From assembly GCA_002729235.1 (NCBI GenBank), contig PBTY01000019.1:24948-75957 (forward strand): a stretch of DNA of 51,010 bases, read 5' to 3'. Below the pieces are notes generated by a model. The model saw only the letters and a program-made list of their open reading frames with translations. It searched no databases and was not told the DNA's origin. Of this stretch, positions 30,834-47,166 are shown one piece after another; within the stretch, counting starts at the first letter, position 1, and every line of letters begins with the position of its first letter. The stretch is from Rickettsiales bacterium (GTDB taxonomy: Bacteria > Bacteroidota > Bacteroidia > Cytophagales > Cyclobacteriaceae). A program made the position numbers and the translations under genes.

Positions 30834-31751
30834 TTAAACAGTTGTTAATTTTTCGGAAAGCATTAGAACATCCTTTTTATAAAGCATTCCCAGGTCCTCT
30901 CGCAAGCAATTGGCTGCGCCGCATGCTGCACCTAGATTGGCAACCGATTGCAAGTCAAGTGATTGAGTTAGCCCAGCAACTACCCCTGCAGTTAAGCAGT
31001 CACCTGAACCAATAGTGCTGATCACGTGATCTATTTTGGCTAAACTGTGGTATTCCTGATCCTTGGTAAGAAGAGATAATCCCTTTGATCCGTCAGTAAT
31101 TGCTGCGATTTCACAGCTAGCGAGAATCCTGGATTTTGCCTCATCAAATTCACATCCATAGAAATCGGTAATTTCTTTTCGGTTGAGGTGAACCGCAGTA
31201 GGGCCGACTTTCAGCGCATTGCTTAGCTGAGCCCCAGTACAATCCAGCATGGTTGGTTTGTTGACTTGCTTACAACTTTCAATTATCGTTGCATTTCCAT
31301 CTTGTGGAGCGCCTTTTGGCCAGGAGCCCGATAAGGCTACATAATCAACATCAGCAAGTATCGATTCTATGGAAAATAAAAGCGCATTGAAATCCTGGTT
31401 TGTAATGCTTGGTCCGGTGCCTAGAATCTCCGTATCGTCAAATGTGTCGTTGGATTTGAAGGTATAACAACTTCGAGTCCATTCTTCCAGTTCTGGTCCA
31501 ATGAATTGTATGGATGGATAGTATTGATTGCAGGATTTTTTGATCCATTGACCAGTTTCTCCACCCCAGAATCCGGCTATGGTAACTTGAAAATCTAACT
31601 CCGTTAATGCCATCCCAACATGAAGACCTTTTCCTCCCGGGTAGCGTTTTTCTTCTGTTATTCGGTTTGGTATGCCCATCCCAAACGTTTCAATATAGGC
31701 ATAGATGTCTACTGCCGGGTTCGGGCATACCACTAAAATATGATGAGACAT
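30834..31751 (-). CDS. PfkB-family kinase, tagatose-6-phosphate kinase / 1-phosphofructokinase-like
   Basis: A 305-residue ribokinase-fold enzyme. The N-terminus VVCPNPAVDIYAYI and PGGKGLHVGMAL (38-49) are typical of the LacC/FruK branch that phosphorylates sugar phosphates at O1. The anion-hole and base motif is GSGD at 248-251 (D251), here with S in place of the usual A. The start is 3 bp after the symporter stop, so the two are co-transcribed. In this window the galactosamine-6-phosphate isomerase and bisphosphate aldolase lie about 13 kb away, and this kinase would supply the missing tagatose-6-phosphate to tagatose-1,6-bisphosphate step. Fructose-1-phosphate as substrate cannot be excluded. 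Confidence 0.82.
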   Translation of the reverse strand: MSHHILVVCPNPAVDIYAYIETFGMGIPNRITEEKRYPGGKGLHVGMALTELDFQVTIAGFWGGETGQWIKKSCNQYYPSIQFIGPELEEWTRSCYTFKSNDTFDDTEILGTGPSITNQDFNALLFSIESILADVDYVALSGSWPKGAPQDGNATIIESCKQVNKPTMLDCTGAQLSNALKVGPTAVHLNRKEITDFYGCEFDEAKSRILASCEIAAITDGSKGLSLLTKDQEYHSLAKIDHVISTIGSGDCLTAGVVAGLTQSLDLQSVANLGAACGAANCLREDLGMLYKKDVLMLSEKLTTV

Positions 31752-31754
31752 GAC

Positions 31755-33536
31755 TTAGCTGAGTTTAGGCCAAAGTTTAGTGAGTACCACTACAGATATT
31801 GCTGACAGAACCATCAAAATGGATGCATTCAGAATCTCACCGTAGATGAATAAACCAGTGCCCATCAGGAACGAGTAAATACCCACTGTCCCAGCAATCA
31901 TACACAAGATGCCCACAGGTACCTTCCAGGTATCGGTTTTGGCAGTTAATTCGTATCCTTCTGATTTTGCCTGAGCAATGATCGATTTCCATCCAGGTCC
32001 ACCAGGATTTACCTTATTGATAAAGTTGACCATGGTTTCCATGTTGGTAGGAGTGGTCACAAAGCTGACAATGATCCAGATTACTGTGGTTATTCCAACA
32101 CCGATTACGAGTTGCATCCAATCTGCCAATGGAGCAAAGCCAAGAGATTCATGAATCAATCCAAAATAGATGGCAATGGCAAAGCTGACGATCATGGCTG
32201 AGAGCTCACTAGCCGCATTCACACGCCACCAGAACCATCTCAAAATAAAGATCAATCCTGTTCCTGCACCGATTTGCAATAAGATTTGAAATGCTCCTAA
32301 AGCATTGTCTAGAAGCAAAGCAAAAATCATCGTTAGGATCATTAGAACTACCGTGATGATTCTTCCAACATTGAGCATTTCTTTCTGAGTAGCATCAGGT
32401 TTAGCGAATCGCTTATAAAAGTCATTGACTATATAAGATGCTCCCCAGTTTAAATGTGTAGAAATAGTAGACATATAAGCTGCTATCAATGAAGTGACAA
32501 CTATACCTAGTAATCCTGATGGTATAAAGGTCAACATGGCAGGATAGCCCAAATCGTGATTGATAATGCTTTCGGAGTTGGGGAATGCTGTTCTGAAACT
32601 ATCCAAATCTGGGAACACGACTAGTGAACACAATGCTACAATAATCCACGGCCATGGTCTTAAAGCGTAATGAGCTGCATTGAAGAATAAAACCGCTTTG
32701 ATGGAATGATCTTCATTCTTAGCAGCAAACATCCTCTGAGCAATGTAACCACCACCTCCAGGCTCTGCTCCTGGGTACCATACTGACCACCATTGAACTA
32801 AGAGTGGAATCAGGAAGATCATGATAAAGATCTCTGGATCATTGGGTGAAGGGAACAGGTCTAGTTTGTCTGCTACATTTTCATGAGCTAATAAATTACT
32901 TAGTCCACCCACTTTTGGATGTTGCAAGGCTACGAAAGCAGCGATGAAGGCTCCACCTATAGAAAGGAAGAACTGTAAGAAGTCAGTAATCAATACTCCT
33001 TTCAATCCTCCAAGCGAGCTGTAGATTACGGTAATGGTTCCGGCAATCAATACCGTTTGCAACGGAGTAAGTCCGAGTAAAACACCTCCTATTTTAATGG
33101 CTGCCAGAGATACGGTTGCCATGATCATTACATTAAATAAGAGACCAAGGTAAATGGCTCTAAATCCTCTTAAGAAGCGGGCGATCTTTCCGCTATATCT
33201 TAATTCGTAAAATTCCACATCGGTGACTACACCTGATTTCTTCCAAAGACGTGCGTATACAAATACGGTTAGCATACCAGTTAAAAGGAATGCCCACCAG
33301 GCCCAGTTTCCAGAGACACCATTTTGACGAACTATGTCGGTAACAAGGTTCGGCGTATCAGTTGAGAATGTAGTTGCAACCATAGAAACTCCCAATAACC
33401 ACCATGGCATTTTACCACTTGCTGTGAAGTAATCGTCAGCGTCTTTATTACCTGATTTGGCAGTCCAAATTCCGATACCTAGTGAAATGATGAAGAAACC
33501 GATCACAAACGACCAGTCAAGTGCACTCAAAACCAT
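31755..33536 (-). CDS. Sodium:solute symporter (SSS family), probable sugar transporter
   Basis: A 593-residue membrane protein with about 14 hydrophobic helices and the SSS-family layout. Recognisable segments are DDYFTASGKMPWWLLGVSMVATTFSTDTP (read in pieces, first two helices, with the Na2-site-like S/T), YSSLGGLKGVLITDFLQF, and the mid-protein YMSTISTHLNWGASYIVND. The family includes sodium/glucose and sodium/sialic-acid carriers. It starts the two-gene transcript with the PfkB kinase and is divergent from the GH109 gene. Import of free GalNAc or galactosamine is inferred from context; no PTS components are present in the window. Confidence 0.85.
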   Translation of the reverse strand: MVLSALDWSFVIGFFIISLGIGIWTAKSGNKDADDYFTASGKMPWWLLGVSMVATTFSTDTPNLVTDIVRQNGVSGNWAWWAFLLTGMLTVFVYARLWKKSGVVTDVEFYELRYSGKIARFLRGFRAIYLGLLFNVMIMATVSLAAIKIGGVLLGLTPLQTVLIAGTITVIYSSLGGLKGVLITDFLQFFLSIGGAFIAAFVALQHPKVGGLSNLLAHENVADKLDLFPSPNDPEIFIMIFLIPLLVQWWSVWYPGAEPGGGGYIAQRMFAAKNEDHSIKAVLFFNAAHYALRPWPWIIVALCSLVVFPDLDSFRTAFPNSESIINHDLGYPAMLTFIPSGLLGIVVTSLIAAYMSTISTHLNWGASYIVNDFYKRFAKPDATQKEMLNVGRIITVVLMILTMIFALLLDNALGAFQILLQIGAGTGLIFILRWFWWRVNAASELSAMIVSFAIAIYFGLIHESLGFAPLADWMQLVIGVGITTVIWIIVSFVTTPTNMETMVNFINKVNPGGPGWKSIIAQAKSEGYELTAKTDTWKVPVGILCMIAGTVGIYSFLMGTGLFIYGEILNASILMVLSAISVVVLTKLWPKLS

Positions 33537-33586
33537 ATTAATAACTTTACGAAAGAAAAATTAAGCTTAAATATAGAATAAACATT

Positions 33587-33598
33587 CGAAACGTTTGC
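33587..33598. promoter_or_regulatory. LacI-family-like palindromic operator candidate
   Basis: CGAAACGTTTGC contains the perfect 8-bp palindrome AAACGTTT with a central CG, the hallmark of LacI/PurR/CcpA-type operators. It lies 50 bp upstream of the symporter start in the divergent region with GH109. No LacI-family gene is in the window. Confidence 0.4.
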
Positions 33599-33615
33599 TT
33601 TAAGGAAATAAAAAG

Positions 33616-33631
33616 TTTCTTTTCCTTATTA
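33616..33631. promoter_or_regulatory. TTTC-N-TTT repeat, candidate DeoR/AgaR-like site
   Basis: TTTCTTTTCCTTATTA in the symporter-GH109 gap resembles the spaced TTTC/TTT pattern of sites bound by the GalNAc repressor AgaR in enterobacteria. Similar strings occur at 35186-35198 and 47274-47288. The region is AT-rich, so the match could be chance. Confidence 0.25.
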
Positions 33632-33697
33632 TTTAATAAAAACCTGCTATATTGAGTCTGATTTTTATTGATTCCCAAGTTATACTAATAAAATAAT

Positions 33698-35053
33698 ATG
33701 GACAGAAGAGATTTTGTATGGAAAACGGCAGCAGGAGCAACGCTTGCTATGATGAGCCCATCATTCTCATTTGGTATTGGCAAAACCGAGGATAAAATTC
33801 GTCTTGGTTTTATCGGAGTAGGTGCTAGAGGTACCGGTCAATTGGGGTTAACCCTGAGACGTAAAGATATTATTGTCACAGCTGTTTGTGATGTGGATCC
33901 TGAACGTTTGGCTAATGCATCCAAAATGGTGCAAGATGCGGGTATGAAAAAACCGGCTACATTCGGATCGGGTCCATATGCCTATCAGGATCTTTTAAAA
34001 AGAGAAGATGTAGATGCAGTAATTATCTCTACCCCTTGGATCTGGCACACACCGATGGCTATTGATGCTATGGAAGCCAAAAAGGCTGTGGGGTTGGAGG
34101 TAGCTGGTGCTTTTGATATTCAGGAGTGTTGGGCATTAGTAGATGCCTATGAAAAGACGGGGACACCTTTTATGATCCTGGAGAATGTGGCTTATCGCAG
34201 AGATGTAATGGCTGTGTTGAATATGGTACGACAAGATCTTTTTGGAGAAGTAATCCATTTACAGGGAGGGTATCAGCATGACTTACGTCATGTGAAGTTT
34301 AATAATGGAAAGCAACTATATGGTGGTGGAGTAGAGTTTGGGGACAAAGCCTACAGTGAGGCTAAATGGAGAACCGGCCACTCGGTGCATCGAAATGGTG
34401 ATTTGTATCCAACCCATGGTTTAGGGCCGGTATCCAACTATATCAATAACAATCGAGGCAATCGATTTGTGTATTTGACGTCTACTGCTTCTAAATCAAG
34501 AGGACTGCATGAGTATATCGTTAATCATCCACAAGGAGGGGAGAGTCACCCGAACGCTGATGTGGAGTTTAAGTTAGGAGATATCGTAACTACAGTTATT
34601 AAGTGTGCCCAGGGAGAGTCTATTGTGCTGACACATGATACCAATCTGCCTAGACCTTATTCACTTGGCTTTAGAGTACAAGGGACTAAAGGAGTGTGGA
34701 TGGATGTGAATGATGGCATACACATAGAAGGTAAGAGTCCTGAGCATGAGTGGGAAAATGATGCAGAATACATGAAAAAATACGACCACCCACTTTGGAA
34801 AAAATACGAAGCAGATACTGAAGGAGCAGGCCATGGAGGTATGGACTTCTTCGTGATCCATGCATTTGTCGAAGCATTGAAGCGTAACGAACCAATGCCA
34901 ATGGATGTATATGATGCAGTCTCATGGGCAGCGGTTACCTGTTTATCCGAACAGTCTATAGCTGATGGAAGCGAGCCTGTGCAGTTCCCAGACTTCACAA
35001 GAGGTAAGTGGATGACTAGAAAACCGATTTTTGGTTTTGACGATAGATATTGA
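33698..35053 (+). CDS. GH109 family alpha-N-acetylgalactosaminidase-like, Tat-exported
   Basis: A 451-residue Gfo/Idh/MocA-fold protein. The N-terminus MDRRDFVWKTAAGATLAM is a Tat signal, as is usual for GH109, so folding with bound NAD before export is expected. The Rossmann loop is GFIGVGARGTG (37-47). The GH109 signature follows: GGYQHDLRH (190-198), KWRTGHSVHRNGDLYPTHGLGPV in pieces with Y237 and H240, NNNRGNRF, and the C-terminal GAGHGGMDFFVIHAF. The family hydrolyses alpha-linked GalNAc by an NAD-dependent redox-elimination mechanism. It is divergent from the symporter and separated from the next plus-strand gene by a terminator. Other GH109-fold members have different substrates, so the sugar assignment leans on the nearby AgaS operon. 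Confidence 0.85.
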   Translation: MDRRDFVWKTAAGATLAMMSPSFSFGIGKTEDKIRLGFIGVGARGTGQLGLTLRRKDIIVTAVCDVDPERLANASKMVQDAGMKKPATFGSGPYAYQDLLKREDVDAVIISTPWIWHTPMAIDAMEAKKAVGLEVAGAFDIQECWALVDAYEKTGTPFMILENVAYRRDVMAVLNMVRQDLFGEVIHLQGGYQHDLRHVKFNNGKQLYGGGVEFGDKAYSEAKWRTGHSVHRNGDLYPTHGLGPVSNYINNNRGNRFVYLTSTASKSRGLHEYIVNHPQGGESHPNADVEFKLGDIVTTVIKCAQGESIVLTHDTNLPRPYSLGFRVQGTKGVWMDVNDGIHIEGKSPEHEWENDAEYMKKYDHPLWKKYEADTEGAGHGGMDFFVIHAFVEALKRNEPMPMDVYDAVSWAAVTCLSEQSIADGSEPVQFPDFTRGKWMTRKPIFGFDDRY

Positions 35054-35077
35054 TTGAAAGTTAGTTCATAAGTAGAG

Positions 35078-35105
35078 GCCCGGGCGTTATGTCTGGGCTT
35101 TTTTT
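35078..35105 (+). terminator. Rho-independent terminator after GH109 gene
   Basis: GCCCGGGC (35078-35085), loop GTTAT, GTCTGGGC (35091-35098, two G-T pairs) and a T7 tract, 25 bp after the stop codon. Confidence 0.85.
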
Positions 35106-35185
35106 ATGCCTTCCAATGAAAGTAGGGGTGTATAACATGATCTAAAAATAAAAAGAAAGTAAACGAAAGAATAAATAAAATATTA

Positions 35186-35224
35186 TTTCTTTCTTTTGAT
35201 TGTTTAAAATAATTTATACTTTCG
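35186..35224 (+). promoter_or_regulatory. Candidate Bacteroidetes promoter with TTTC repeats for the beta-helix gene
   Basis: TTTTG (35194-35198) and TACTTTCG (35217-35224, one mismatch to TAnnTTTG) are 18 bp apart and resemble the -33/-7 elements of Bacteroidetes promoters, 30 bp upstream of the ATG at 35254. The -33 element is embedded in TTTCTTTCTTTTG (35186-35198), which is also a candidate repressor site. The preceding GAAAGAATAA (near 35167) is nearly the inverse of TTATTTCTTTC, forming an imperfect inverted repeat. Confidence 0.4.
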
Positions 35225-35253
35225 AATAATTGTTTTTATTTAAACCAAACGCT

Positions 35254-38250
35254 ATGAAAATGAAAACTCTACTTTCGTTAACTTTTTTATGTGGTTTACT
35301 TACGCTATCGACCACATTGTTTGCTCAGCGTCTTACTACGCTATATGTAGACGCTAACTACACGGGTGGTTCCTCCAACGGAACTGCTTCTGCGCCTTTT
35401 ACAACTATTCGTGCTGCGCTTGATCATCGTGGAAATACCATGGGTCTGGCAGAGATGGAATCTGATGAAAGAATTCTCGTAAAAGCAGGGACTTACATTC
35501 CTGACTCCACTACCATGATATTTTTGACTTCAACAAATGGAGGAAAAGAAAATTACTGGTTTACATTGGAGGCTGAGGACAGTGTTTACCTGAGAGGTGA
35601 TAGTTTGTATCACAAGAAATTTGCTTCCCTTATTGCTGTCACTGCTGGTGCCGTAAATGTTCGAGTGAAAGGTTTTAAGTTGCTCCACATGCGCAATAAT
35701 CAAAGCCTTGCTGGTTATGTGAATGGAGTCTATGTGAAAGACGGTAAGTTTGGAATTCAGGTGGCCAACACGGCTAAGAATGTGGAGATCGTGGATAATG
35801 AGATTTATGATTTTTCCTGGACAAACAATGTAGACCCAATGAAAGGTCGTACTTCTTTCACAAGTGCGGAAATTGACACCTTAAAGTCTGCAGATCCCGG
35901 AGATAATTCAGGTGCGATTAATGTAGTGGGTACTGACACCATTCCAATTACAGGTCTGGTAATCAAGAATAACTATGTGCATCATGTGATTCCAGGATGG
36001 ACTGAAGGTATTCAGGTAAATGGTAATGTTGATGGATTTGAGATCAGCAATAACATTGTAGAGGAGGTTCAAAATATTGGAATAGTTGCGGCGGGTCATT
36101 ACAACTGGGTGACTGAAATTGATGGGGCAACGGTCGCGGCTGCTGACAACTACGCTAGAAATGGAGTTATTAGAGATAACAAAGTAATGAGTTGTCGTTC
36201 GCCTATTGCCGCTGCTGCGGGAATCTATTGTGATGGTTCTTACAACGTGCTTATTGAGAACAATGAATCATCGGATGGACAAGTTGGATTCTCTATCGGA
36301 AATGAGAATAGTAACGTAAGCTCTGGTGGACATACCGTAAGAAACAATATAGCTTATGATAATGCCTGGACTGGTATCATTGCTGGTGTTCCATATGCAG
36401 CATCTGGTAGCACGATTGATTCTGTTACCATTACAGGAAATACCGTATTCAGAAATGGAGGAGTTACGGATACCTACCTAGGTAATATGGGGGCTTCAGA
36501 ATTCATTGTTTTGAAGCAGATAAAGAATCTGACAATAGAGAATAATATCTTCTATGCTGCAAATCACGATAAGTTAGTAACATTTGCTTTGCCTTTTGAT
36601 TCAACATCCTTCATCAACACAATATCATTTGATTACAATATCTATTATACTAATTCAACAGCTTCTCCTGCATTAGGAGTTTTTGACTGGTCTCAGTTAG
36701 GTACTGGCTACGACTATTATGGTACGTTTGCCTGGTATCGAGTTAATCGAACGAATCAAGACGCTAATTCGTCGTTTTCTGATCCTGTATTTGAAAGCAC
36801 GACTTCTGGAAGTGTAGATCTTCGTTTGCAATCAACTTCTGCAGCTATCGATGCGGGGAATCCTTCTTATTCTGTAAGTACTGGAGAAACGGATTTCTTT
36901 GGCAATGACCGAATAGCTAATAGTGTGATTGATGCGGGGGCATTTGAGTCAAGCTCTGCAGCAGCTGGTGATGAGGCTGCTACCATTGATGGTATCAAGA
37001 GCAGTACAGAAAACTATGTCACGTTACAAACTGGGGTATCTGGATTGTTCAGCAGCATCTACGCTTATGAAGACAATCACTTTGTGTATGTCTATGCAGA
37101 GTATTCTGGTACTATGCCTGAATATTCGGTATTTGTAAATACCAATTCAGCAACGGGTTACCAGGAAGTGTGGACAGATAAGGCTGATTATTATGTAGAT
37201 GGAGCCCAGGATTTATTCAATTACTATACCGGTTCGGGTTCGTGGCCATTCGATCCTGATAATTCAGTGATGACCGTGAAGTTTATTAAAACCGATTCAA
37301 CGGTAGAAGGTCGTATACCTAAGTATGCTCTAGGAATTGGTGAGACTGGAACGATCGGATTGGGAATTGAGGGTTATAACTCTAGTTGGACGAGTATTGG
37401 CTCTATACCGGTTCAGGATGATCCAATGGTGTACCTGACTCTTGATGGTGGTTCAGAGGCGGGAAGCTTATCAATTGATGGTATTAAGAGTCCGGTTGAA
37501 GGATATACTGCCCTGGTAACAGGAGTTACGGGTAATGCTTTCAGTAGTGTTTACGGTTTTGTGGATGCAGAATACATCTATGTGTATGCGGATATTGCTA
37601 ATGATAGCTTGAGAGAATACGATGTTTATATCAATACGAACAGCTCTACTGGTGAGCAATATTTCTGGACAGATAAATCCAATTACTATATTGATGGTAA
37701 CTACAATCAGTTGAGTGAATACACAGGCTCCGGTAGCTGGCCATTTGTTGAATCATCTAATTCAACTGGTATTGAATTCGTTATGACTCCTTCAGCAATT
37801 GAAGGAAAGATTTTGAAGTCTTTGATCGGTGTTGGAAGTTCAGGAACTATTGGTTTGGGGATCGAGGGGCATACGAAGGCTTGGGGTTCAAGTCTTGGAG
37901 GAGCACCATCAAATGGTAATAGTATGGTATATCTATCTCTAGCTTATTCTGGATCTAGGGCTGCAGGAGCTGGATTGGAAGAATCCTCATTACCAGCAGA
38001 ACCTACATTCATGATGTATCCGAATCCGGTTTCTGAAAACCTGAACATTGTTCATGAAATGAAAGATTCAGGCCCAATGAAAGTTAGCGTAATTGGCCTG
38101 GATGGGAGGCTTTACTTCCAAAAAGAACTGGAATTGGAATCAGGAGCTTATCAGCATCAAATACCTGTGCATAATTTACCAAAAGGAATTGTACTAGTTC
38201 AAGTTCAAACCAAAGAAGAAACAATCACTCAGAAGGTGATTATAAGATAA
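35254..38250 (+). CDS. Secreted right-handed beta-helix protein with two tandem CBM9-like domains and T9SS sorting domain
   Basis: A 998-residue secreted protein; the ATG at 35254 gives a clean signal peptide (LTFLCGLLTLSTTLFAQ), whereas an upstream TTG at 35230 would not. Residues about 27-560 are a parallel beta-helix of the pectate-lyase/PbH1 kind, opening YVDANYTGG and carrying repeated N-N-x-I/V rungs (VEIVDNEIYD, LVIKNNYVHH, FEISNNIVEE, LTIENNIFY) and ending DAGAFES. Two repeats of about 150 residues follow (starting about 577 and 739), each opening IDGIKS and containing a Y-x-x-V/Y-Y-A strand, F/Y-x-NTNS-x-TG and YTGSGSWPF; they resemble carbohydrate-binding DOMON/CBM9 folds. The end is a type A sorting domain (MYPNPVSENL). 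A lyase or hydrolase acting on the GalNAc-containing glycan is possible, but no known catalytic motif is recognised. Confidence 0.8.
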   Translation: MKMKTLLSLTFLCGLLTLSTTLFAQRLTTLYVDANYTGGSSNGTASAPFTTIRAALDHRGNTMGLAEMESDERILVKAGTYIPDSTTMIFLTSTNGGKENYWFTLEAEDSVYLRGDSLYHKKFASLIAVTAGAVNVRVKGFKLLHMRNNQSLAGYVNGVYVKDGKFGIQVANTAKNVEIVDNEIYDFSWTNNVDPMKGRTSFTSAEIDTLKSADPGDNSGAINVVGTDTIPITGLVIKNNYVHHVIPGWTEGIQVNGNVDGFEISNNIVEEVQNIGIVAAGHYNWVTEIDGATVAAADNYARNGVIRDNKVMSCRSPIAAAAGIYCDGSYNVLIENNESSDGQVGFSIGNENSNVSSGGHTVRNNIAYDNAWTGIIAGVPYAASGSTIDSVTITGNTVFRNGGVTDTYLGNMGASEFIVLKQIKNLTIENNIFYAANHDKLVTFALPFDSTSFINTISFDYNIYYTNSTASPALGVFDWSQLGTGYDYYGTFAWYRVNRTNQDANSSFSDPVFESTTSGSVDLRLQSTSAAIDAGNPSYSVSTGETDFFGNDRIANSVIDAGAFESSSAAAGDEAATIDGIKSSTENYVTLQTGVSGLFSSIYAYEDNHFVYVYAEYSGTMPEYSVFVNTNSATGYQEVWTDKADYYVDGAQDLFNYYTGSGSWPFDPDNSVMTVKFIKTDSTVEGRIPKYALGIGETGTIGLGIEGYNSSWTSIGSIPVQDDPMVYLTLDGGSEAGSLSIDGIKSPVEGYTALVTGVTGNAFSSVYGFVDAEYIYVYADIANDSLREYDVYINTNSSTGEQYFWTDKSNYYIDGNYNQLSEYTGSGSWPFVESSNSTGIEFVMTPSAIEGKILKSLIGVGSSGTIGLGIEGHTKAWGSSLGGAPSNGNSMVYLSLAYSGSRAAGAGLEESSLPAEPTFMMYPNPVSENLNIVHEMKDSGPMKVSVIGLDGRLYFQKELELESGAYQHQIPVHNLPKGIVLVQVQTKEETITQKVIIR

Positions 38251-38290
38251 TGTGTTGGCGCACAGTGTTCAATTGTTTTTAAAGTAAAGG

Positions 38291-38323
38291 CCACCCTGAC
38301 AAAATCGTCAGGGTGGTTTTTTT
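38291..38323 (+). terminator. Strong Rho-independent terminator after the beta-helix gene
   Basis: CCACCCTGAC (38291-38300), loop AAAATC, GTCAGGGTGG (38307-38316) and T7: a perfect 10-bp stem, 40 bp after the stop. Confidence 0.93.
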
Positions 38324-38358
38324 ATGATTAGGTAGTCGATACGTGAAATCCTTGCGCA

Positions 38359-38992: not shown

Positions 38993-39019
38993 TTGGTAGA
39001 ACTATAAAAACACAAGACA

Positions 39020-39433: not shown

Positions 39434-39437
39434 GTGT

Positions 39438-39596: not shown

Positions 39597-39625
39597 GGGT
39601 TAATATAGTTTCATGGTGATACGGT

Positions 39626-39653: not shown

Positions 39654-39656
39654 ATT

Positions 39657-41111
39657 TCAATACTTGATTTTAATCGAACCGATTTCACCTTGCATGTCAT
39701 GTGCAATCAAGCGGATAATAATTCGGTCTCCTTCTTGTGACCAACCCTTAATGGTGATTCCTGGATTATTAGATTCCAATTCAGACGGCTCGCTTTTGGT
39801 CAAGACTGTTAGTTTTTGATCACCATACCAACATAAATCGATCTTTGTTTCCTCTTCCTTATGGGATATTTCCAAAATATTGGAAGTTGTATCATGCCAT
39901 ACGGTATCAGAAATCATATCACTTCCCAGCTCATATTTTAAGAAATACTTTTTCTGAAGAAGCGGAGGTAGGTATAAAAACCCATATCCTTGATCTTCAT
40001 AATATGCTGCTATTGGCTTGTTGTTCAGAGATGCACTTGTTACGTGTTGATTTACGTTGATCTTGATTTTAAGAACCAGGTTGGAAGGAAAATGTCCATT
40101 GTAGACTTTGTCTGGCATTGCCGTGTTATCCAGTTCTAATCCTTCGTCAGTCTGAGTTACCTTGGTGTATTTGTTATACAACCATTGTGAGTGCATTTGA
40201 GCTGTGTTTTTTGCACAGTAGCGATCCTCACTTGATTGTACATCCTGATAGTATTGTGTCCATTTGGAAGTGATCTCTTCCTGGCTCTCTTCCGCATTGA
40301 AGAGGAGGTTTGGCCAATGTGTTTCGATATAATCTGTTGGTTGCTCTTCTAAAGGAGTGTCTGGTAGTTTACCTGGTGCCGACCAAAGATTGCCATAGTT
40401 GTAACGGTTCATTACGTGAACGGAGTGATCAAAGCCACCACCATTTTCCTCCTGAGGTGGATTGCATTCTGGTATTTTGGTAAAATCTGTATTTGCAAAT
40501 CGAACGCCAAATTCACCGAGAACAGATCCAAGACTATAAGTGCCATCCGGGTTCCAATAATAGCTGTAAGCGCATGGTACGAAGCTTTCCGGGAAGGAAT
40601 GACCATTCTCCATAGTGATGCCATACTGATTCATGATTCGAATGAAGCATTTCACGTGATTGCGAATTTCCTCTTCCGGCCATGGGTGATCATCTACAGT
40701 GTTGTACCACTCGGCCCGTCTGCGTTTGCCCTCTTCCGGCCAAAACTCATGCCCAACACCATGTAAGCCAAACTCAAGGTGGCTGCTAACACCTTTCACG
40801 TATTCCATCATTTCCACTTGCAGATCTGAGATGTTTTCTGTGTTGTCCCAGTTCTCACGCATGAAAGTGGTTGTTGGGAAATCTCCAAGGAAATTTTCTC
40901 GGTCCATTTCTCCAAGAATGAATAAACCCTGAAGACGCACACCAGCTCTCTTCGCCAGATCAACTACAGCCTTGTAATCGTCCAGGGTCATGTTTCTACT
41001 CAAACCGGTTCTATATGGACCATAGCCTTCTTGGCCATCATCGTGTCCTTTCATCCAGCCCAGGTCATCGATGGCAATGGCAAATGGTCTTGGGAATATG
41101 ATTTTGTTCAT
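39657..41111 (-). CDS. Putative polysaccharide-deacetylase-like (NodB-like) protein, cytoplasmic
   Basis: A 484-residue protein that I do not recognise as a named family. The first strand FAIAIDDLGW has an Asp pair (D15, D16) and a later segment GLHGVGHEFW has H117-x3-H121, together resembling the metal triad of NodB-homology deacetylases (motif D-D plus H-x3-H). The segment between (YKAVVDLAKRAGVRLQGLF) fits an alpha/beta barrel. The C-terminal 180 residues are beta-rich and may be an accessory sandwich. No signal peptide is seen, so it is probably cytoplasmic. It is the last gene of the AgaS operon, 17 bp after the GH36-like gene. A role in removing the N-acetyl group of GalNAc or a related oligosaccharide is suggested by context; other hydrolase activities are possible. 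Confidence 0.55.
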   Translation of the reverse strand: MNKIIFPRPFAIAIDDLGWMKGHDDGQEGYGPYRTGLSRNMTLDDYKAVVDLAKRAGVRLQGLFILGEMDRENFLGDFPTTTFMRENWDNTENISDLQVEMMEYVKGVSSHLEFGLHGVGHEFWPEEGKRRRAEWYNTVDDHPWPEEEIRNHVKCFIRIMNQYGITMENGHSFPESFVPCAYSYYWNPDGTYSLGSVLGEFGVRFANTDFTKIPECNPPQEENGGGFDHSVHVMNRYNYGNLWSAPGKLPDTPLEEQPTDYIETHWPNLLFNAEESQEEITSKWTQYYQDVQSSEDRYCAKNTAQMHSQWLYNKYTKVTQTDEGLELDNTAMPDKVYNGHFPSNLVLKIKINVNQHVTSASLNNKPIAAYYEDQGYGFLYLPPLLQKKYFLKYELGSDMISDTVWHDTTSNILEISHKEEETKIDLCWYGDQKLTVLTKSEPSELESNNPGITIKGWSQEGDRIIIRLIAHDMQGEIGSIKIKY

Positions 41112-41128
41112 GTTAATCAGTTAGTATT

Positions 41129-43192
41129 TTACCTCTTGGGATAAACTTCAATTAGCAAAGCGTCTTGAAAACTTACCTTCATTCGATTTTTAGACTTGCT
41201 TACTTCTCCGATGATCACGTCATTGACATAATCTCTTACAATATAACTCTCGTCCTGTAATCCGCGTAATTCTATTTCTTGATCCCACATCTCTGCATAA
41301 AAAGAATAATGTAAGGTGTCACCTTTTAGGATAACGTGAGTTTCTGGAAGGTCATACCCGATATCATAAAGATCTCCCAGGTAGCTCTCTTTGGATAACA
41401 TTTTCTCATTGTAAAGTCCGAACCATTTTTTCCAAACCAGTTCGTCTTCGGCGGTCAATGCGGGAATAGCTTCATCAGATACTTCATTGGCTTTTGGCCA
41501 AACGAATTTAGTGCCCAGAACTGCGCCAACACCGAAGGAGCTTGCAAAATCATTTCCGTTATCACTCAATTCCACATGGTCACCATAGTACGCGGTATTG
41601 GGAATCAATGCTTTGTATGTTTTTCCTTTGTGGCGAATTTGCCAGGACGATAAAGGGTCAGAAGAAACGGCCTGATTCATGAAAGGCATATTGAAGAAAC
41701 TCATGCAGGTGCCACATGGACAGTTTTCTACTACAGCATGTGGTTTAATTTTGAGTGCTTCGTCATAGATTAGTTGAAAGAATTCCGGAAGTCTCTCAGG
41801 TGCTTCATTTGGATTCTCTAAACCACTTTCCGGATTGTGATCTGGAGCTACTGCATTCATGTGCTGGCCATCCAATTTTAAGCCATCAAATCCCCAGTCA
41901 TTCATGAATAGGTTCACTACGTCCTTAGTATGTTCTTTGGTGGCAGAGTTAGTCGGACTCAGGTAATAGGAATCCCACCAGGTGATGTATTGTGGTGACC
42001 AGTCCTCGAGATAAAGTCTTGCCTCTGGATGTTCTCTCAAAATTTTACTTCCGGGATCGGCTGCCAATGGGGCCCACCAAAGTTTGGCTTTTAGTCCTGC
42101 TTGGTGAATCTGGCCAACGAATTCCTTCATCTGTTGGTCACCATTAGGGAATTTAACAGAATTCACCTGCCAGTCACCCTCAGCGATTTGGTAGCCATCA
42201 TCCAATACAGCCCATTTGATACCAAACTCCTTCACTTTTGGCAGAGTGCCTAGCACTTCATTTAGATTGAACTTTCTACCATATCCCCAGGCACACCAGA
42301 TAGATTCAAATGCTGCCGGTTCTGAATCAGGCAACTTAATACCTTGATTTTGCATGAATCCAGAATAGTTGCTCAATCCATTGTAATAATCTCCCTGGTG
42401 AATGCCCACAAATGTTGGTAAGGCGTTGATCGTTTCTCCAGGTTTTAGATAAAACGGATATTGAGAATCTTGTTGAATGCTGATGTCAATGTTCTCGGTA
42501 TATTTCTTTAATTCAGTCGGCAATGAAATGAGTTTAGGAGTCATGGCCGTATGGCCAATAATAATCCCACCATCAGGTCTCCAAATATCCACTACAGGAA
42601 TGCCTCCACCATAATCAGAGTTGTTCATTCCCATGTAATTTTTTTGATAATATCCTTCTTCTATTGGCTTGATCCAGTCAGCTCGTGCACTGCTCGAACT
42701 TCCTTGAAACGCCCAGAATGGCGGGTTGTTGCCTTGATTTAGTATCTGATAGTTATTGGTTTTTAATTCCTTCACCAATACATCTTTTTGAGAGCCGTTG
42801 GTGAACGATGTATTGAAGAAAAGCATGTCTGGAACTGAAGTATATTGGATGATTTCGATTCGCTTTTCTATTCCTGTGAGTTCATTAATGCCTTTGAACG
42901 TGTATTTTGTTCCTTTTCCAATTTCATCTTCCAAAGGTTCGTTTACATTGGAAACCAGGTTAAATGATTGGATTGATTGATCTCCGATCAGGTACTCTGT
43001 GGCTGATAGCTCTGTGAGTTGTTTGGTCTGATCATTTAACGAATTGACTGATGTGAACAAATTATCAGCAACGACAAGCTCAAGATCTCCACTCTGAATG
43101 GTCGCAACGATATTGACATTAAGTGGTGATGTACAACTCAATGAAAAAAGCATCAAAAAGCATTCAATCCAATATTTTTTGAGCATTCTCAT
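41129..43192 (-). CDS. GH36-like glycosidase lipoprotein (alpha-galactosidase / alpha-galactosaminidase-like)
   Basis: A 687-residue lipoprotein (LFSLSC, C20) of clan GH-D. An N-terminal beta-supersandwich (to about 290) precedes the barrel: SIWCAWGYGRKF, KWAVLDDGYQ with the Asp pair at 331-332, LKAKLWWAPL, the nucleophile D441 in GLKLDGQH, and the acid/base D512 in VSSDPLSSW. Between them, where GH36 alpha-galactosidases have ENC-SGG-type residues, this protein has ENCPCGTCMSFF (489-500), which suggests a different pocket. The first ATG at 43192 overlaps the preceding gene by 29 bp (a second ATG at 43186 is possible). Within an AgaS operon the likely target is alpha-linked GalNAc or galactosamine, but this is inferred from neighbours, not seen. 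Confidence 0.8.
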   Translation of the reverse strand: MRMLKKYWIECFLMLFSLSCTSPLNVNIVATIQSGDLELVVADNLFTSVNSLNDQTKQLTELSATEYLIGDQSIQSFNLVSNVNEPLEDEIGKGTKYTFKGINELTGIEKRIEIIQYTSVPDMLFFNTSFTNGSQKDVLVKELKTNNYQILNQGNNPPFWAFQGSSSSARADWIKPIEEGYYQKNYMGMNNSDYGGGIPVVDIWRPDGGIIIGHTAMTPKLISLPTELKKYTENIDISIQQDSQYPFYLKPGETINALPTFVGIHQGDYYNGLSNYSGFMQNQGIKLPDSEPAAFESIWCAWGYGRKFNLNEVLGTLPKVKEFGIKWAVLDDGYQIAEGDWQVNSVKFPNGDQQMKEFVGQIHQAGLKAKLWWAPLAADPGSKILREHPEARLYLEDWSPQYITWWDSYYLSPTNSATKEHTKDVVNLFMNDWGFDGLKLDGQHMNAVAPDHNPESGLENPNEAPERLPEFFQLIYDEALKIKPHAVVENCPCGTCMSFFNMPFMNQAVSSDPLSSWQIRHKGKTYKALIPNTAYYGDHVELSDNGNDFASSFGVGAVLGTKFVWPKANEVSDEAIPALTAEDELVWKKWFGLYNEKMLSKESYLGDLYDIGYDLPETHVILKGDTLHYSFYAEMWDQEIELRGLQDESYIVRDYVNDVIIGEVSKSKNRMKVSFQDALLIEVYPKR

Positions 43193-44234
43193 AATATAGT
43201 TTCTTTAACGTTTCATCATTGAGTCCAAACCCATGAAGTGGCCAATGATAATTGAAATAATCCTGCTGGTAGAAGTGTTCGTCTTGTGTTTCTAGAATAC
43301 GAAACACTATCTCATACATGGTCTTTTGATCACCCATGTCTGTTCCGAAAAGCAATCGATCGCTATACTTTTCATAAAATGTCTGCATATAGCGAGGAAT
43401 GGGAGCTGTCTCACCAAATCGCGCAGAGATATCTGCATAGAGGTTTGAATACTTATCCAATAGATCTCCAAGTATAGATAAGTCATAGCTGCAGTTGGCG
43501 AAATGACATGCAATGAACGTTGTATGAGGGTTTTGCTTAACAGCATTTTCTAATGAAATGATTAATTCCTTGTGATTGAGAGTTTCTGGATCAGATAAAT
43601 CAACTTTCCATTTATATCCGTTCATTAACCCATCATTTGTGGAGTCTTGTTCATTGTACATCCACATAGGTTCAGCTACATGAATATTTATTGGCATGTT
43701 TAATTCCCCACATTTCGCTAGCAAGGGCTGTAGTTTAAGATCGTCGATGTGCATGCCTGGAGCAGGGGATGGAAGTGAATACATGAGTCCTTGGCCTTTG
43801 TCGCCGAGCTCACCGACACCTTTTGCTCCAACCTTGTGACATCTAATTAGCTCTTTGATGGCTCGTTTACTCCAATCATCTTTTTGATAATTGGTGAAAT
43901 CAAAGCCGCACCAAACATCAAAGCGATTATCATATTGACTATAAACCTGATAGAGACTGTCGAACAATGGGCCTGTTGCGTACGTCAGAATGATTGTTTT
44001 TTCTACATTGAATTGATCCATGGTTTGTACCCAAAGTTCCAGATCTTTTGACGTAGTAGGGTAGGCATGCGAATGCATGTCTATAACAGGATAGCGTGCT
44101 TTGGTAATCTCGGTTTTTGGAATGTTGTAGATGGATTTCGGTCTGTAATTTGCTAATAAAATACTATCTGGAGTTTGAGCCAACGTGGTGAAGCTCATTC
44201 CAGATAGTATCCCGATTATCCATCTCCAACTCAT
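43164..44234 (-). CDS. Exported amidohydrolase-2 family metal-dependent hydrolase
   Basis: A 356-residue protein with a signal peptide (WIIGILSGMSFTTLAQ). It has the amidohydrolase superfamily metal pattern: HSH in DMHSHAYP, a VGELGD strand, H in NIHVAEP, H in IACHFAN and D in LFGTDMG. This is the PF04909-like branch, whose members are hydrolases, lactonases and decarboxylases, not the branch of the NagA/AgaA sugar-phosphate deacetylases. It overlaps the aldolase stop by four bases and the GH36-like start by about 29, so it is firmly in the operon. An exported hydrolase that trims an acyl or lactone group from the glycan is possible; the substrate is unknown. Confidence 0.78.
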   Translation of the reverse strand: MSWRWIIGILSGMSFTTLAQTPDSILLANYRPKSIYNIPKTEITKARYPVIDMHSHAYPTTSKDLELWVQTMDQFNVEKTIILTYATGPLFDSLYQVYSQYDNRFDVWCGFDFTNYQKDDWSKRAIKELIRCHKVGAKGVGELGDKGQGLMYSLPSPAPGMHIDDLKLQPLLAKCGELNMPINIHVAEPMWMYNEQDSTNDGLMNGYKWKVDLSDPETLNHKELIISLENAVKQNPHTTFIACHFANCSYDLSILGDLLDKYSNLYADISARFGETAPIPRYMQTFYEKYSDRLLFGTDMGDQKTMYEIVFRILETQDEHFYQQDYFNYHWPLHGFGLNDETLKKLYYENAQKILD

Positions 44235-45049
44235 TGGAAATTGATCATTCTTAGTTTTTCAGTAACCAATCCTTGTGCTTCACCTGTGGCTTGAGGGAAT
44301 ACTTTTCTCAAATCAATCTCATCATTGTCTGCTAGCACAGCTTGCAGCTTTTTCATGAAGATGTTTTTGATTTCAGTTGCCAGATTGACTTTAGTGATAC
44401 CTCTTCGAATGGATTCCTGAACCTGATCGTGAGGAATTCCTGAACTACCATGAAGGACCAATGCAGCGGTTGTAGCCTCATTGATTTCAGAAATTAGATC
44501 TAGTTGTAACTCTGGTGTTTTGGTGTAAAATCCATGAGCTGATCCAACAGCTACCGCTAACGCATCAATACCAGTTGCTTCAACAAATCTCTTAGCTTCA
44601 TCAGGTTGAGTGTAAACCATTGCTTGCTCCTGGCCAAGTTTTGCTACATAACCCAATTCTGCCTCTACATTAGCATCAAACTGTTCGGCATACTTGACAA
44701 TCTCACTAGTGATTTTCACATTTTCTTCAAATGGCTTCTCACTTGCATCAATCATAACTGAGTCGAATCCGGCATCTAAGCATTTTTTTACGAGGTTTAC
44801 ATCACTGCCATGGTCCATGTGTAGCCAAGCTTGAACACCAAACTGAGCTATTGCTGCTTTGGCCATTTTGCTTGCTATTTCAACACCCATATAGTTCAGT
44901 GAACTTTCGGATAATTGAAGAATAAGTGCTGAATTCTCGGCCTTAGCAGCACCTAAAACAGCTGCTAAAGTTTCAAAATTGTAAAAATTAGTGGCTAAAA
45001 GAGCCTTGCCCTCTTTTTTGTTGAGGGTTAGTTTTTCTTGTAGTTTCAT
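44231..45049 (-). CDS. Class II ketose-bisphosphate aldolase, tagatose-1,6-bisphosphate aldolase-like
   Basis: A 272-residue class II aldolase close to the GatY/KbaY and FbaA small-subunit type. The zinc ligands and acid are present: D79-H80 in HMDHG, E131 in VEAELG, H172 in GSAHG and H200 in VLHGSSG, and a phosphate-binding VNLATEIK. In the AgaS operon the substrate is most simply tagatose-1,6-bisphosphate, giving DHAP and glyceraldehyde-3-phosphate; fructose-1,6-bisphosphate is the alternative. No GatZ/KbaZ-type subunit is present in the window. It starts 8 bp after the kinase stop. Confidence 0.87.
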   Translation of the reverse strand: MKLQEKLTLNKKEGKALLATNFYNFETLAAVLGAAKAENSALILQLSESSLNYMGVEIASKMAKAAIAQFGVQAWLHMDHGSDVNLVKKCLDAGFDSVMIDASEKPFEENVKITSEIVKYAEQFDANVEAELGYVAKLGQEQAMVYTQPDEAKRFVEATGIDALAVAVGSAHGFYTKTPELQLDLISEINEATTAALVLHGSSGIPHDQVQESIRRGITKVNLATEIKNIFMKKLQAVLADNDEIDLRKVFPQATGEAQGLVTEKLRMINFQ

Positions 45050-45057
45050 GATTGGTA

Positions 45058-45996
45058 TTAGATATCGTAAGCGAATCGCTTTTGGGCGATTTCTTTGATT
45101 TTTTCTATGCTTTCAAATGCTGTAGTACCGCCAGCTTCCGTAGTATTGATGGCTCCGGTTAGGTTGCCAAATTTCAAACACTCATCCAAAGGAAGGTTTT
45201 GAATATACTTGAAGATAAATCCTGCATCAAAGCTGTCACCAGCTCCAATCGCATCAATAGCTTCACTGTTTAAGAAGGCTGGTTGTCTCTCAATATTGCC
45301 ATTTCTGAATAGTGCCGCCCCATTGGTTCCATCCTTCACTACAATTACATTGGCAAACGCTTTTAATGCGTTGATGCCATCTTTCACAGATTTGGTTCTG
45401 GTTAGGTGAAGCAGTTCCGTTCTGTTAGGCATGAATACATCTACATAGGGTAGAAGTGCCTCAAGATCAATATTCCATTGTTCCGATGGGTCCCATTGAG
45501 GATCCATTGATGTGGTCAATCCAAATTCTTTCGCTCTTTTGAAAAGATCTTTCAAGCCACCTTTCAATGCAGGTTGCATAAAAATGCTGCTGACATGCAA
45601 GTGTTTTGCCTCAGTAAGAATATCGTCACGAACTTCTTTGGCACTTAAATGATCCATTGCTCCTGGATAGGTCACATTGGCTCGATCCATGTCATAGTTC
45701 ATCACAATGGTTGAACCCGTTTGGTATTCTTTAGACCGAATAATGAAGTCGGTTTCAACACCTTTGTTTTTCAAAGAAGTTTCGATGAGATCGGCAAACT
45801 GGTCATTTCCGATTTTTCCAAGGAAAGCAACTTTAGCACCCAATGAAGACAGGTTGCTTGCAAAGATTGCAGAACTGCTACCCAAAGTCACCGTCATTTG
45901 TTTGGCAAGGATCTCTTTTCCCACTTCAGGAAATCCATCAATGTGATTCAGAATGATGTCTACATTCAATTCACCTACAACCAATACGTCGTGCAT
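45058..45996 (-). CDS. PfkB-family sugar kinase, candidate galactosamine/GalNAc kinase
   Basis: A 312-residue ribokinase-fold protein. The N-terminal VVGELNVDIILN and GSSSAIFASNLSSLG region resembles ribokinase-type kinases of free sugars, unlike the LacC-like paralogue at 30834. The catalytic motif GAGDSFDAG has D254. It lies between AgaS and the aldolase with gaps of 6 and 8 bp. A non-PTS galactosamine pathway needs a kinase to make the 6-phosphate before AgaS, and this gene is placed for that step, but PfkB enzymes in this role are not well established; enterobacterial routes use PTS or a ROK-type kinase. The sugar is therefore an inference. Confidence 0.8.
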   Translation of the reverse strand: MHDVLVVGELNVDIILNHIDGFPEVGKEILAKQMTVTLGSSSAIFASNLSSLGAKVAFLGKIGNDQFADLIETSLKNKGVETDFIIRSKEYQTGSTIVMNYDMDRANVTYPGAMDHLSAKEVRDDILTEAKHLHVSSIFMQPALKGGLKDLFKRAKEFGLTTSMDPQWDPSEQWNIDLEALLPYVDVFMPNRTELLHLTRTKSVKDGINALKAFANVIVVKDGTNGAALFRNGNIERQPAFLNSEAIDAIGAGDSFDAGFIFKYIQNLPLDECLKFGNLTGAINTTEAGGTTAFESIEKIKEIAQKRFAYDI

Positions 45997-46002
45997 AGCT
46001 AC

Positions 46003-47166
46003 TTATTTCTTTAAAGGTAAATCGTAAATATTAACACCCTGAACAACCCTCGAGATTGCTCCACTAGAGGAAGGAGCATCAGGTTGTAAGTCTTCGCTGA
46101 GAGATTTGAAGAAACCTAGAAGTTGACCAGGAATAATGGATGGAAGCGTTAGAAAATCTTCATCCAATGTCTTGCCATTATCACTAAAGCGAATTTCATA
46201 ATCCACATCCAAATCAAAGTCTAAACGCTCAGCTATAGCAACCTGGGCTAAGGCTTTTTTACCTTTTTCCATGGCGAAAATCAGGTCGTGCTCATATTGA
46301 CTAACGTATGATTCATTGGACATCAGGTAAACGATCAGTGTTTCTTCATCAACTACAGCTTTAGGCCCATGTCTGAAACCAAGGAATGATTCGTCTTTGC
46401 AGATGATCTCGCCATCTGTTAATTCCTGCAACTTTAAATGAGATTCTGTCGCTGTTCCTAATAAAGGGCCAGATCCAAGAAAGACAGCTCTTTTGAAAGG
46501 TAGCGCAGCAATTTCTTTAATAGTTGCCAAATATTTTGTCAGGACTTCTGTTCCATACTCAGAAGCCAACGTGACTTGGTTTTGTAACTCAGCGACTTCA
46601 TGAAGTCTGGAAACCAAAAGACCTGTCAATAGCATGCCTGAGTAGCTGCTCGTCATTGCCAGGCTTTTATCATTTGTTTCCTTGGGTAAGGTGAAAATAT
46701 ACTTTTCACCTGGTGTATCATATTTCGCTAAATCCCCTTCAGGGTTACAGGTAATGATTAAATGATAGCATTTCTTACTGATTTGATCTGCAAGTACTAC
46801 TGCAGCTTTACTTTCCGGACTGTTACCGGATCGTGCAAAAGAGACTAACAAGACCGACTGATCTTTTGAAAAGTAATCGTAAGGATGCGAAACTAAATTG
46901 GTAGTCGGGATGGCACTCGTACAAGTATACCCAGCTCTATTGAAGGTGCCTACTAAAGACTCTCCAATGTATGCACTTGTTCCAGCTCCAGTTAAAATGA
47001 TTTTATGAAACTCAGATCCATTCAAAAAGGCTTGAATTTCTTCCTTTTTCTCATTTACGCTTTCCCAAATTTTTTGCCAAACAGCTGGTTGTTGGGCGAT
47101 TTCTCTAGCGGTATGAATCGCGCCTAAAGACTCAAGGGTTTTGCTGTCTATATCTAAAAAATGCAT
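46003..47166 (-). CDS. agaS: AgaS-type D-galactosamine-6-phosphate deaminase/isomerase (SIS domains)
   Basis: A 387-residue protein with two SIS domains. SIS-1 has the loop ILTGAGTSAYIGES (57-70), and LVSFARSGNSPES (108-119). SIS-2 has LGSGPLLGTATESHLKLQELT, followed by the AgaS-typical FLGFRHGPKAVV and the C-terminal PDAPSSSGAISRVVQGVNIY. This order and these strings are characteristic of AgaS rather than of GlmS, and the family converts galactosamine-6-phosphate to tagatose-6-phosphate with release of ammonia. It is the first gene of the operon and is divergent from the DeoR-family regulator. Confidence 0.9.
   Translation of the reverse strand: MHFLDIDSKTLESLGAIHTAREIAQQPAVWQKIWESVNEKKEEIQAFLNGSEFHKIILTGAGTSAYIGESLVGTFNRAGYTCTSAIPTTNLVSHPYDYFSKDQSVLLVSFARSGNSPESKAAVVLADQISKKCYHLIITCNPEGDLAKYDTPGEKYIFTLPKETNDKSLAMTSSYSGMLLTGLLVSRLHEVAELQNQVTLASEYGTEVLTKYLATIKEIAALPFKRAVFLGSGPLLGTATESHLKLQELTDGEIICKDESFLGFRHGPKAVVDEETLIVYLMSNESYVSQYEHDLIFAMEKGKKALAQVAIAERLDFDLDVDYEIRFSDNGKTLDEDFLTLPSIIPGQLLGFFKSLSEDLQPDAPSSSGAISRVVQGVNIYDLPLKK

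Follow-up and report, generated by a model that had tools for sequence, protein, structure and literature searches.

In the sections of PMC12118421 cited here, N-acetylgalactosamine (GalNAc) is phosphorylated either on import by a phosphotransferase system (PTS) or by the kinase AgaK, and is then deacetylated by AgaA or NagA. In Shewanella the PTS is replaced by the AgaP permease together with AgaK, which act with AgaAII and AgaS (PMC2996990 and PMC12118421, both in part). For the GalNAc pathways of human gut genomes, the cited parts of PMC5583593 give AgaS as the signature gene and speak of AgaA and of importers of the PTS and ABC kinds; the main text of that paper never uses the term "AgaK". 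Here we describe a stretch of 51,010 nucleotides (the window; positions 24948-75957 of contig C20) from a 6.55-Mb Bacteroidota genome of 116 contigs, in which two operons probably make up a single AgaR-controlled, PTS-free pathway for galactosamine (GalN) and, once it has been deacetylated, GalNAc.

The locus is similar to the aga/gam system of Escherichia coli (AgaS, KbaYZ, AgaR, AgaPTS/GamPTS and AgaA) in having an AgaS-family protein, the aldolase, AgaR and the operator motif, whereas its genome has no Aga-type EIID, no KbaZ and no NagA/AgaA above the model cut-off; in their place stand a symporter and two kinases of the PfkB family. With the Shewanella pathway, as described in the parts cited above, it shares the replacement of the PTS by a permease and a kinase, although here the kinase is a PfkB protein and the importer belongs to the SSS family; AgaK and AgaAII were compared by description only. 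The gut pathways are alike in AgaS and differ in their PTS or ABC importers and AgaA, as far as the cited parts show. Of the FpGalNAcDeAc and FpGalNase enzymes of Flavonifractor plautii, which deacetylate and then cleave off GalN, the latter is matched here by a GH36 protein in which key residues are kept. Unlike in that system, the Y464 position is a glycine, the GH36 gene lies in the same operon as genes of GalN catabolism and the deacetylase role is assigned to other proteins; a homologue of FpGalNAcDeAc was not searched for. Finally, the E. coli pairs YdjH/YdjI and YihV/YihT also contain PfkB kinases of the ribokinase side, with ydjH adjoining an aldolase gene, but these kinases are only 24-26% identical to the one found here, fall outside its clade and occur in clusters without AgaS. 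Among the paper titles listed for the themes of AgaS/AgaK/PfkB, GalN kinase, GH109 and Bacteroidota, none describes the pathway.

Organization of the two operons

The agaS operon consists of minus-strand genes that overlap or are separated by at most 17 bp (Table 1). It encodes AgaS, a ribokinase-type PfkB kinase (RK), a class II aldolase, a secreted amidohydrolase, a GH36 lipoprotein and a protein of 484 amino acids (aa), and agaR is divergent from agaS. The second operon is a minus-strand pair encoding the symporter and a LacC-type PfkB kinase. It is divergent from a gene of family GH109, which we take to be an alpha-N-acetylgalactosaminidase family.

All open reading frames (ORFs) named in a preliminary description of this DNA were found to exist, with the coordinates and strands given there. 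Its operon of agaS, PfkB kinase and aldolase genes is indeed one operon; the aldolase gene is however not the last, as the operon runs on through three further genes. Its account of operon content was thus right for the genes it named and left the amidohydrolase, GH36 and 484-aa genes unlisted. The 12 kb that it placed between the operons was measured as 10.7 kb from the symporter to the aldolase gene and 6.1 kb from the symporter to the last gene of the agaS operon.

Co-occurrence and conservation of the locus

Gene content, conservation, co-occurrence and operator-like sites were all obtained by computation. A total of 395 Bacteroidota genomes were searched with profiles for AgaS (A1, built from four sequences) and RK (A2, three sequences) at E <= 1e-60. 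AgaS was found in 20 genomes and RK in the identical 20, spread over 10 of 171 genera. In one of them (G342) the two genes lie on separate contigs, yet both are present. Twelve of the 20 genomes belong to a single family (f87) and the number of independent events is therefore smaller than 20. The Aga-type PTS component EIID (PF03613) was found in none of the 20 genomes, including that of the window, with E. coli, Bacillus subtilis and Lactococcus lactis serving as positive controls; an Aga PTS was rejected on this basis.

Profile A2 was also used to scan genome contigs, where 138 RK relatives were found and the best 80 were kept as named loci, their contents being counted with profiles at more than 100 bits. 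These 80 loci contain the aldolase (67), AgaS (66), AgaR (51), GH36 (45), a GatZ-type protein (36), the secreted amidohydrolase (30), a DUF4832 protein (15), the LacC-type kinase (13), a cytosolic form of the amidohydrolase (13), the 484-aa type (12), GH109 (11) and SSS (3). Genes missing from these counts partly reflect truncation, since 25 of the 80 loci are shorter than 15 kb; among the remaining 55, AgaS is present in 50. By title the 80 loci are from Bacteroidota or related organisms except for L069 and L108, titled Methanosarcina and Bifidobacterium breve, which carry Bacteroidota-like aga operons and are probably misbinned contigs. A second set of 19 AgaS loci, taken from 19 other sampled genomes and sharing at least one genome with the first set (L027 and L081), contains RK in 18, AgaR in 17, the cytosolic amidohydrolase in 16, the aldolase in 15, GH109 in 13 (every one with the cytosolic amidohydrolase), SSS in nine and GH36 in three. 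In two genomes, the aga locus is surrounded by repeated GH109 and amidohydrolase genes, as though these had been amplified together (L180 of G426 and L145 of G508).

The two clusters of the window are fused in relatives. In L029, which comes from the window's own family, AgaS, the LacC-type kinase, RK, the aldolase, the amidohydrolase, GH109 and AgaR are encoded in a single run, with a symporter gene beyond a SusC/SusD-like pair (named by eye); this symporter is 59% and the LacC-type kinase 40% identical to those of the window. Two further loci (L136 and L138) each have AgaS, the LacC-type kinase, RK, SSS and GH109 inside 20 kb. The window clusters therefore correspond to parts of one system in relatives. 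Another split arrangement was observed in G321, where the LacC-type gene lies about 16 kb and the secreted amidohydrolase gene about 17 kb from agaS.

A predicted AgaR regulon

An operator model of 22 bp (consensus ATTTAACTTTCGTTTCCTTTCg) was learned only from other genomes. The starting material was the stretch between divergent agaR and agaS genes in 48 loci, from which the window, one duplicate and two regions shorter than 60 bp were taken out to leave 44. Sites of at least 15 bits occur in three of the 18 window intergenic regions of at least 30 bp, namely agaR/agaS, symporter/GH109 and GH109/1006-aa gene, the next best region reaching 7.7 bits. Column-permuted models placed top-eight sites in both operon promoters in 3 of 1000 cases and in all three regions in 0 of 1000. 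At 14.5 bits or more, five sites were found in the 51-kb window against two in control stretches from elsewhere in this genome (a listed 115,415 bases that come to about 111 kb once overlaps are removed, and a non-random choice) and a mean of 0.45 in simulated windows. When applied to a 15-kb stretch of E. coli K-12, the model placed four of its six top sites in the agaR/kbaZ interval and two upstream of agaS. Because predicted operators lie in both operon promoters, the two window operons would form one predicted AgaR regulon.

The proposed pathway enzymes and the two kinases

AgaS has TIGR02815 as its best model, though at 360.4 bits it stays below the curated cut-off of 529.2; its best structural matches are putative tagatose-6-phosphate ketose/aldose isomerases (3odp, E 1e-80), and its identity with the E. 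coli protein is 38% across 373 aa. Both the aldolase (TIGR00167, 233.1 bits; cut-off 215.6) and AgaR (NF040755, 277.3 bits; cut-off 260) score above their cut-offs. The aldolase has 37% identity with E. coli KbaY across 236 aa, and AgaR has 41% with its E. coli counterpart.

RK is below the cut-off of all 22 NCBIfam models listed, the nearest being ribokinase (TIGR02152, 128.8 bits; cut-off 299.65); for the tagatose kinase model NF049991, it reached 105.5 bits where 420 are required. In a pairwise alignment with the ribokinase 11bl, GSSSA of RK stands at the place of GGKGA. The closest E. coli relatives are YdjH (26% identity), YihV (24%) and RbsK (26%). We placed both kinases in a tree built from 57 proteins of the PfkB family, where several single rows are long-branched so that joins between long branches have to be read with caution. 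Here 28 RKs form one clade on the ribokinase side (support 100/98), whose neighbours are poorly supported (87/37), while 18 LacC-type proteins form another beside FruK and PfkB (100/100). The best PDB match of the LacC-type kinase is a tagatose-6-phosphate kinase (2jgv), and its score with the lacC model TIGR01231 is 117.2 bits (cut-off 409.55), "LacC-type" being a label for likeness only. A second LacC-type gene, truncated at a contig end and accompanied by a nuclease-like gene, was seen elsewhere in the same genome (L033 2-1509, contig C111); the DNA is 73% identical to window positions 30033-31523 and may represent a paralogue or a contaminating relative (estimated contamination 4.64%).

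Since there are two kinases for two phosphorylations, and the phosphosugar-type (LacC) one plausibly acts second, we infer that RK is the first kinase and replaces phosphorylation by the PTS.

The LacC-type kinase and the GatZ-type protein were never found in one locus, neither among the 80 named loci (0/80) nor among the 19 sampled ones (0/19), where seven have the LacC-type, seven the GatZ-type and five neither. In the named loci the LacC-type gene is directly upstream of RK on the same strand in 10 of 13 cases, the other three being elsewhere in the locus, and the GatZ-type gene in 31 of 36, with four about 1 kb upstream and one elsewhere. In the sampled loci, the position between agaS and RK is taken by the LacC-type gene in 7 of 7 and by the GatZ-type gene in 4 of 7. 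At the level of genomes, the LacC-type kinase (at least 296 bits) is present in nine of the 20 with AgaS and GatZ (more than 100 bits) in nine different ones. PF08013 matches at any score were found in 11 of the 20, weak ones occurring in two LacC-type genomes (G435, 38 bits; G634, 35 bits), and four GatZ genomes show weaker matches to the LacC-type profile (119-143 bits). No KbaZ/GatZ (PF08013) was found in the genome of the window. The GatZ proteins are of two types by PF08013 score, one at 103-118 bits (G426, G508, G479, G626, G500 and G504) and one at 584-611 bits (G351, G581 and G658). In three loci (L147-L149), the gene order is RK, AgaS, GatZ. The cited part of PMC12118421 records a proposal that AgaZ (KbaZ) is a tagatose-6-phosphate kinase; the swap fits this proposal without proving it.

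The proposed galactosaminidase and the candidate deacetylases

The best PDB matches of the GH36 lipoprotein are structures of FpGalNase, one of them deposited as an alpha-galactosidase. The similarity to 9awt covers residues 68-682 (E 1.5e-68), and the next other enzyme follows at E 3e-12. FpGalNase differs from alpha-galactosidase at Y464, C513 and D532, and the C513A and D532A variants are nearly inactive (PMC11762096, in part). In our alignment of 47 GH36 rows, which include near-duplicates and in which positions were mapped by hand, the C513 position is a cysteine in all 47 and the D532 position an aspartate in 46, the remaining row being cut off. The Y464 position is a glycine in 46 rows and a serine in one. 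The window protein thus has the full-length similarity, the nucleophile aspartate, C513 and D532 of the FpGalNase type and lacks Y464, and we propose it as an alpha-D-galactosaminidase.

The genome of the window has no NagA/AgaA above the cut-off (TIGR00221, best match 29 bits; cut-off 225.65), so that this type was rejected as its deacetylase, although a diverged member is possible among 12 other Amidohydro_1 matches. Across the 20 AgaS genomes the model is exceeded in two, with G321 just below it at 223.6 bits and G508 at 178 bits. The preliminary description held that every step was supplied, which for GalNAc is not supported at the deacetylation step; the claim needs the amidohydrolase, GH36 and 484-aa genes of the agaS operon, as there is no NagA/AgaA above the cut-off. 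With a proposed galactosaminidase encoded in the agaS operon free GalN is to be expected, which could explain the missing NagA/AgaA, and the three genes together suggest that the kinase acts on galactosamine and not on GalNAc.

Members of the amidohydrolase family (profile A3, E <= 1e-15) were found in 19 of the 20 AgaS genomes, and D52, H54, H56, H185, H244 and D299 are invariant in the 41 A3 sequences. Judged by eye, the amidohydrolases encoded beside GH36 bear signal peptides and most of those beside GH109 begin near the metal motif, with secreted-looking exceptions in L042, L044, L076, L145 and L146. The fold matches listed for the predicted model of the window protein (pLDDT 88.9) are uncharacterised amidohydrolases together with decarboxylases, hydratases and C-C hydrolases, and no sugar deacetylase is named among them. 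At E <= 1e-60 this family (Amid2) occurs in 84 of the 395 genomes; these comprise 19 of the 20 AgaS genomes but also 65 of the 375 that lack AgaS, and an exclusive link to aga was accordingly rejected. At about 310 bits, a threshold picked after seeing the list, it is present in 19 of the 20 AgaS genomes and five of the 375 others.

The 484-aa protein has no Pfam match above cut-off and no sequence match in the PDB; DD and HxxxH motifs were observed. Its fold matches include the CE4 deacetylases 3rxz, 4nyy and 6h8l at weak E-values (3e-3 to 3e-2), the top-ranked match being aminopeptidase N (E 9e-4, TM 0.12).

Other features of the window

The coordinates of all features are listed in Table 1. 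Adjoining agaR on the minus strand (48114-50771) is a gene for a DUF4874/DUF4832 protein with a Por tail, the same DUF4832 type as in the RK loci above, and it is possible that this protein is a glycosidase for a GalN-rich polymer. Plus-strand genes at 494-27438 were named by eye as an apparent L-rhamnose catabolic run (494-9113) and sigma, anti-sigma and SusCD genes (9177-15904), followed by genes for GH3, GH5 and GH78-type proteins.

Table 1. Genes of the two operons, neighbouring genes and predicted AgaR operators, in window coordinates.
Feature	Position	Strand	Basis
agaS, galactosamine-6-phosphate deaminase/isomerase family (SIS)	46003..47166	-	TIGR02815; PDB 3odp; E. coli AgaS
RK, ribokinase-type PfkB, proposed D-galactosamine (or GalNAc) 6-kinase	45058..45996	-	PF00294, 177 bits
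Class II ketose-bisphosphate aldolase, proposed tagatose-1,6-bisphosphate aldolase	44231..45049	-	TIGR00167
Secreted Amidohydro_2 protein, candidate amino-sugar deacetylase	43164..44234	-	PF04909, 51.5 bits; signal peptide by eye
GH36 lipoprotein, FpGalNase type, proposed alpha-D-galactosaminidase	41129..43192	-	PDB 9awt; lipobox by eye
484-aa protein, second candidate deacetylase	39657..41111	-	no signal peptide by eye
agaR, DeoR-family repressor	47342..48124	+	NF040755
LacC-type PfkB kinase, proposed tagatose-6-phosphate kinase	30834..31751	-	PDB 2jgv, E 1.9e-30
SSS sodium:solute symporter, proposed GalN/GalNAc importer	31755..33536	-	PF00474, 112 bits
GH109 glycosidase	33698..35053	+	PF21252, 296 bits
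1006-aa secreted protein, Por sorting tail, predicted AgaR regulon member	35230..38250 (start may be 35254 by eye)	+	only PF18962
Predicted AgaR operator, agaR/agaS region	47226..47247	+	15.0 bits, rank 4
Predicted AgaR operator, just upstream of symporter-LacC operon	33540..33561	-	16.9 bits, rank 3
Second predicted AgaR operator, symporter/GH109 divergent promoter	33577..33598	+	11.6 bits, rank 7
Predicted AgaR operator, GH109/1006-aa gene interval	35154..35175	-	20.3 bits, rank 1
AgaR operator-like site near 1006-aa gene	35213		12.0 bits
AgaR operator-like site near 1006-aa gene, within ORF 5' end	35266		14.8 bits
AgaR operator-like site inside agaS	46878-46899	-	19.0 bits, second best in window

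Proposed pathway and alternatives

In the pathway that we propose, GH109 would release GalNAc outside the cell, where the GH36 lipoprotein would release GalN from alpha-linked residues whose acetyl group is already gone. The symporter would import the sugar, RK would phosphorylate it at O6 and AgaS would deaminate and isomerise galactosamine-6-phosphate to tagatose-6-phosphate, which the LacC-type kinase would convert to tagatose-1,6-bisphosphate for cleavage by the class II aldolase. Given the lack of a NagA/AgaA above the cut-off, we assign the removal of the acetyl group to the amidohydrolase, the 484-aa protein or both. All of these substrates, and whether deacetylation precedes phosphorylation, we infer from the genes. 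Our tentative suggestion on this order, which we hold as a possibility rather than an expectation, is that GalNAc is deacetylated before phosphorylation and that RK is a dedicated PfkB D-galactosamine 6-kinase. This would happen either outside the cell, where the secreted amidohydrolase would prepare the substrate from which the GH36 galactosaminidase sets GalN free, or inside the cell through the cytosolic form in the loci with GH109 and the symporter. A secreted enzyme acting before import would have no phosphorylated substrate; if it works on unphosphorylated sugar, then by homology the cytosolic form would work on free GalNAc and RK on GalN.

As a unit, the PTS-free, two-kinase, split pathway is well supported. 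The preliminary view that the two operons form one split pathway agrees with the fused locus L029, the joint occurrence of AgaS and RK, the exchange of LacC-type for GatZ-type genes and the common predicted operators. The co-occurrence in related genomes that it had asked for was found for AgaS and RK in the same 20 of 395 genomes, the absence of a PTS that it assumed was seen in all 20, and its suggestion that a PfkB enzyme for the first phosphorylation would be a variant of known Aga pathways would apply to RK.

Several observations weigh against this pathway as drawn. The nearest E. coli relatives of RK, YdjH and YihV, are labelled as ketose and not amino-sugar kinases, and two genomes (G342 and G531) have AgaS and RK with neither the LacC-type kinase nor GatZ, so that some genomes lack a candidate for the second phosphorylation. 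Amid2-like genes also stand alone in genomes without AgaS; the 20-kb stretches around five of them (L172-L176) gave no profile match for AgaS, RK, the aldolase or GH36, and one (L173) a weak GH109 match of 77 bits. Among the operator predictions, the 19.0-bit site within agaS is either a chance match or an intragenic operator, and at 11.5 bits or more there are six sites in the control stretches of about 111 kb against seven in the window, with a simulated-window mean of 1.75. In relatives, an enrichment of operators (at least 12 bits) directly upstream of GH109 and SSS genes was not found, the counts being 1/29 and 2/12 against 41/518 for other ORFs; there these genes are mostly within the aga locus.

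The points on RK could be accommodated if RK were itself the tagatose-6-phosphate (ketose C1) kinase, with an unlinked kinase phosphorylating the amino sugar and the LacC-type or GatZ protein being auxiliary. The best E. coli relatives by E-value, YdjH and YihV, are each encoded near an aldolase gene, RK adjoins the aldolase in most of the best 80 loci and the two genomes G342 and G531 have RK without LacC-type or GatZ. We nevertheless consider this unlikely. The LacC-type kinase occurs alongside RK in 13 of 80 named and 7 of 19 sampled loci, and in the tree it clusters beside FruK and PfkB, which are phosphosugar kinases, leaving the first step to RK. Moreover, RK is present in 20 of 20 AgaS genomes compared with nine each for the LacC-type and GatZ, and being invariant it more likely performs the step that has no other supplier in PTS-free cells.

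That the LacC-symporter-GH109 cluster instead belongs to an independent system, perhaps one using a 1-phosphofructokinase, and lies nearby by chance, appears very improbable to us. The LacC-type kinase does score higher with the 1-phosphofructokinase model TIGR03828 (176.9 bits) than with lacC, both being under the cut-off, but homologues of all three genes lie within the aga locus L029 and predicted AgaR operators occupy the common promoter of the symporter and GH109. Least probable of all is a pathway for another amino sugar, or for a unit of a GalN-rich polymer other than the GalN/GalNAc monosaccharide. The presence of both GH109 and a GalNase-type GH36, and of secreted 1006-aa and DUF4832 proteins in the neighbourhood, would suit such a substrate, whereas AgaS, an AgaR above its cut-off, an operator motif shared with E. 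coli, GH109 and the GalNase-type GH36 indicate GalN/GalNAc.

The PTS-free, AgaR-controlled pathway would add a new variant to the aga pathways known so far, its choice of kinase being less new if the AgaK of Shewanella is itself a PfkB protein. The replacement of LacC-type by GatZ-type genes offers a natural test of whether GatZ/KbaZ has a role at the tagatose-6-phosphate kinase step. If GalNAc is deacetylated first, the Amidohydro_2 and 484-aa groups would be new amino-sugar deacetylases that take the place of NagA/AgaA. The locus is a concrete, conserved candidate for a PTS-free GalNAc/GalN route in Bacteroidota. It supplies a specific kinase, a predicted regulon and a pair of candidate deacetylases, along with GH36 proteins akin to the enzyme used in A-to-O blood conversion.

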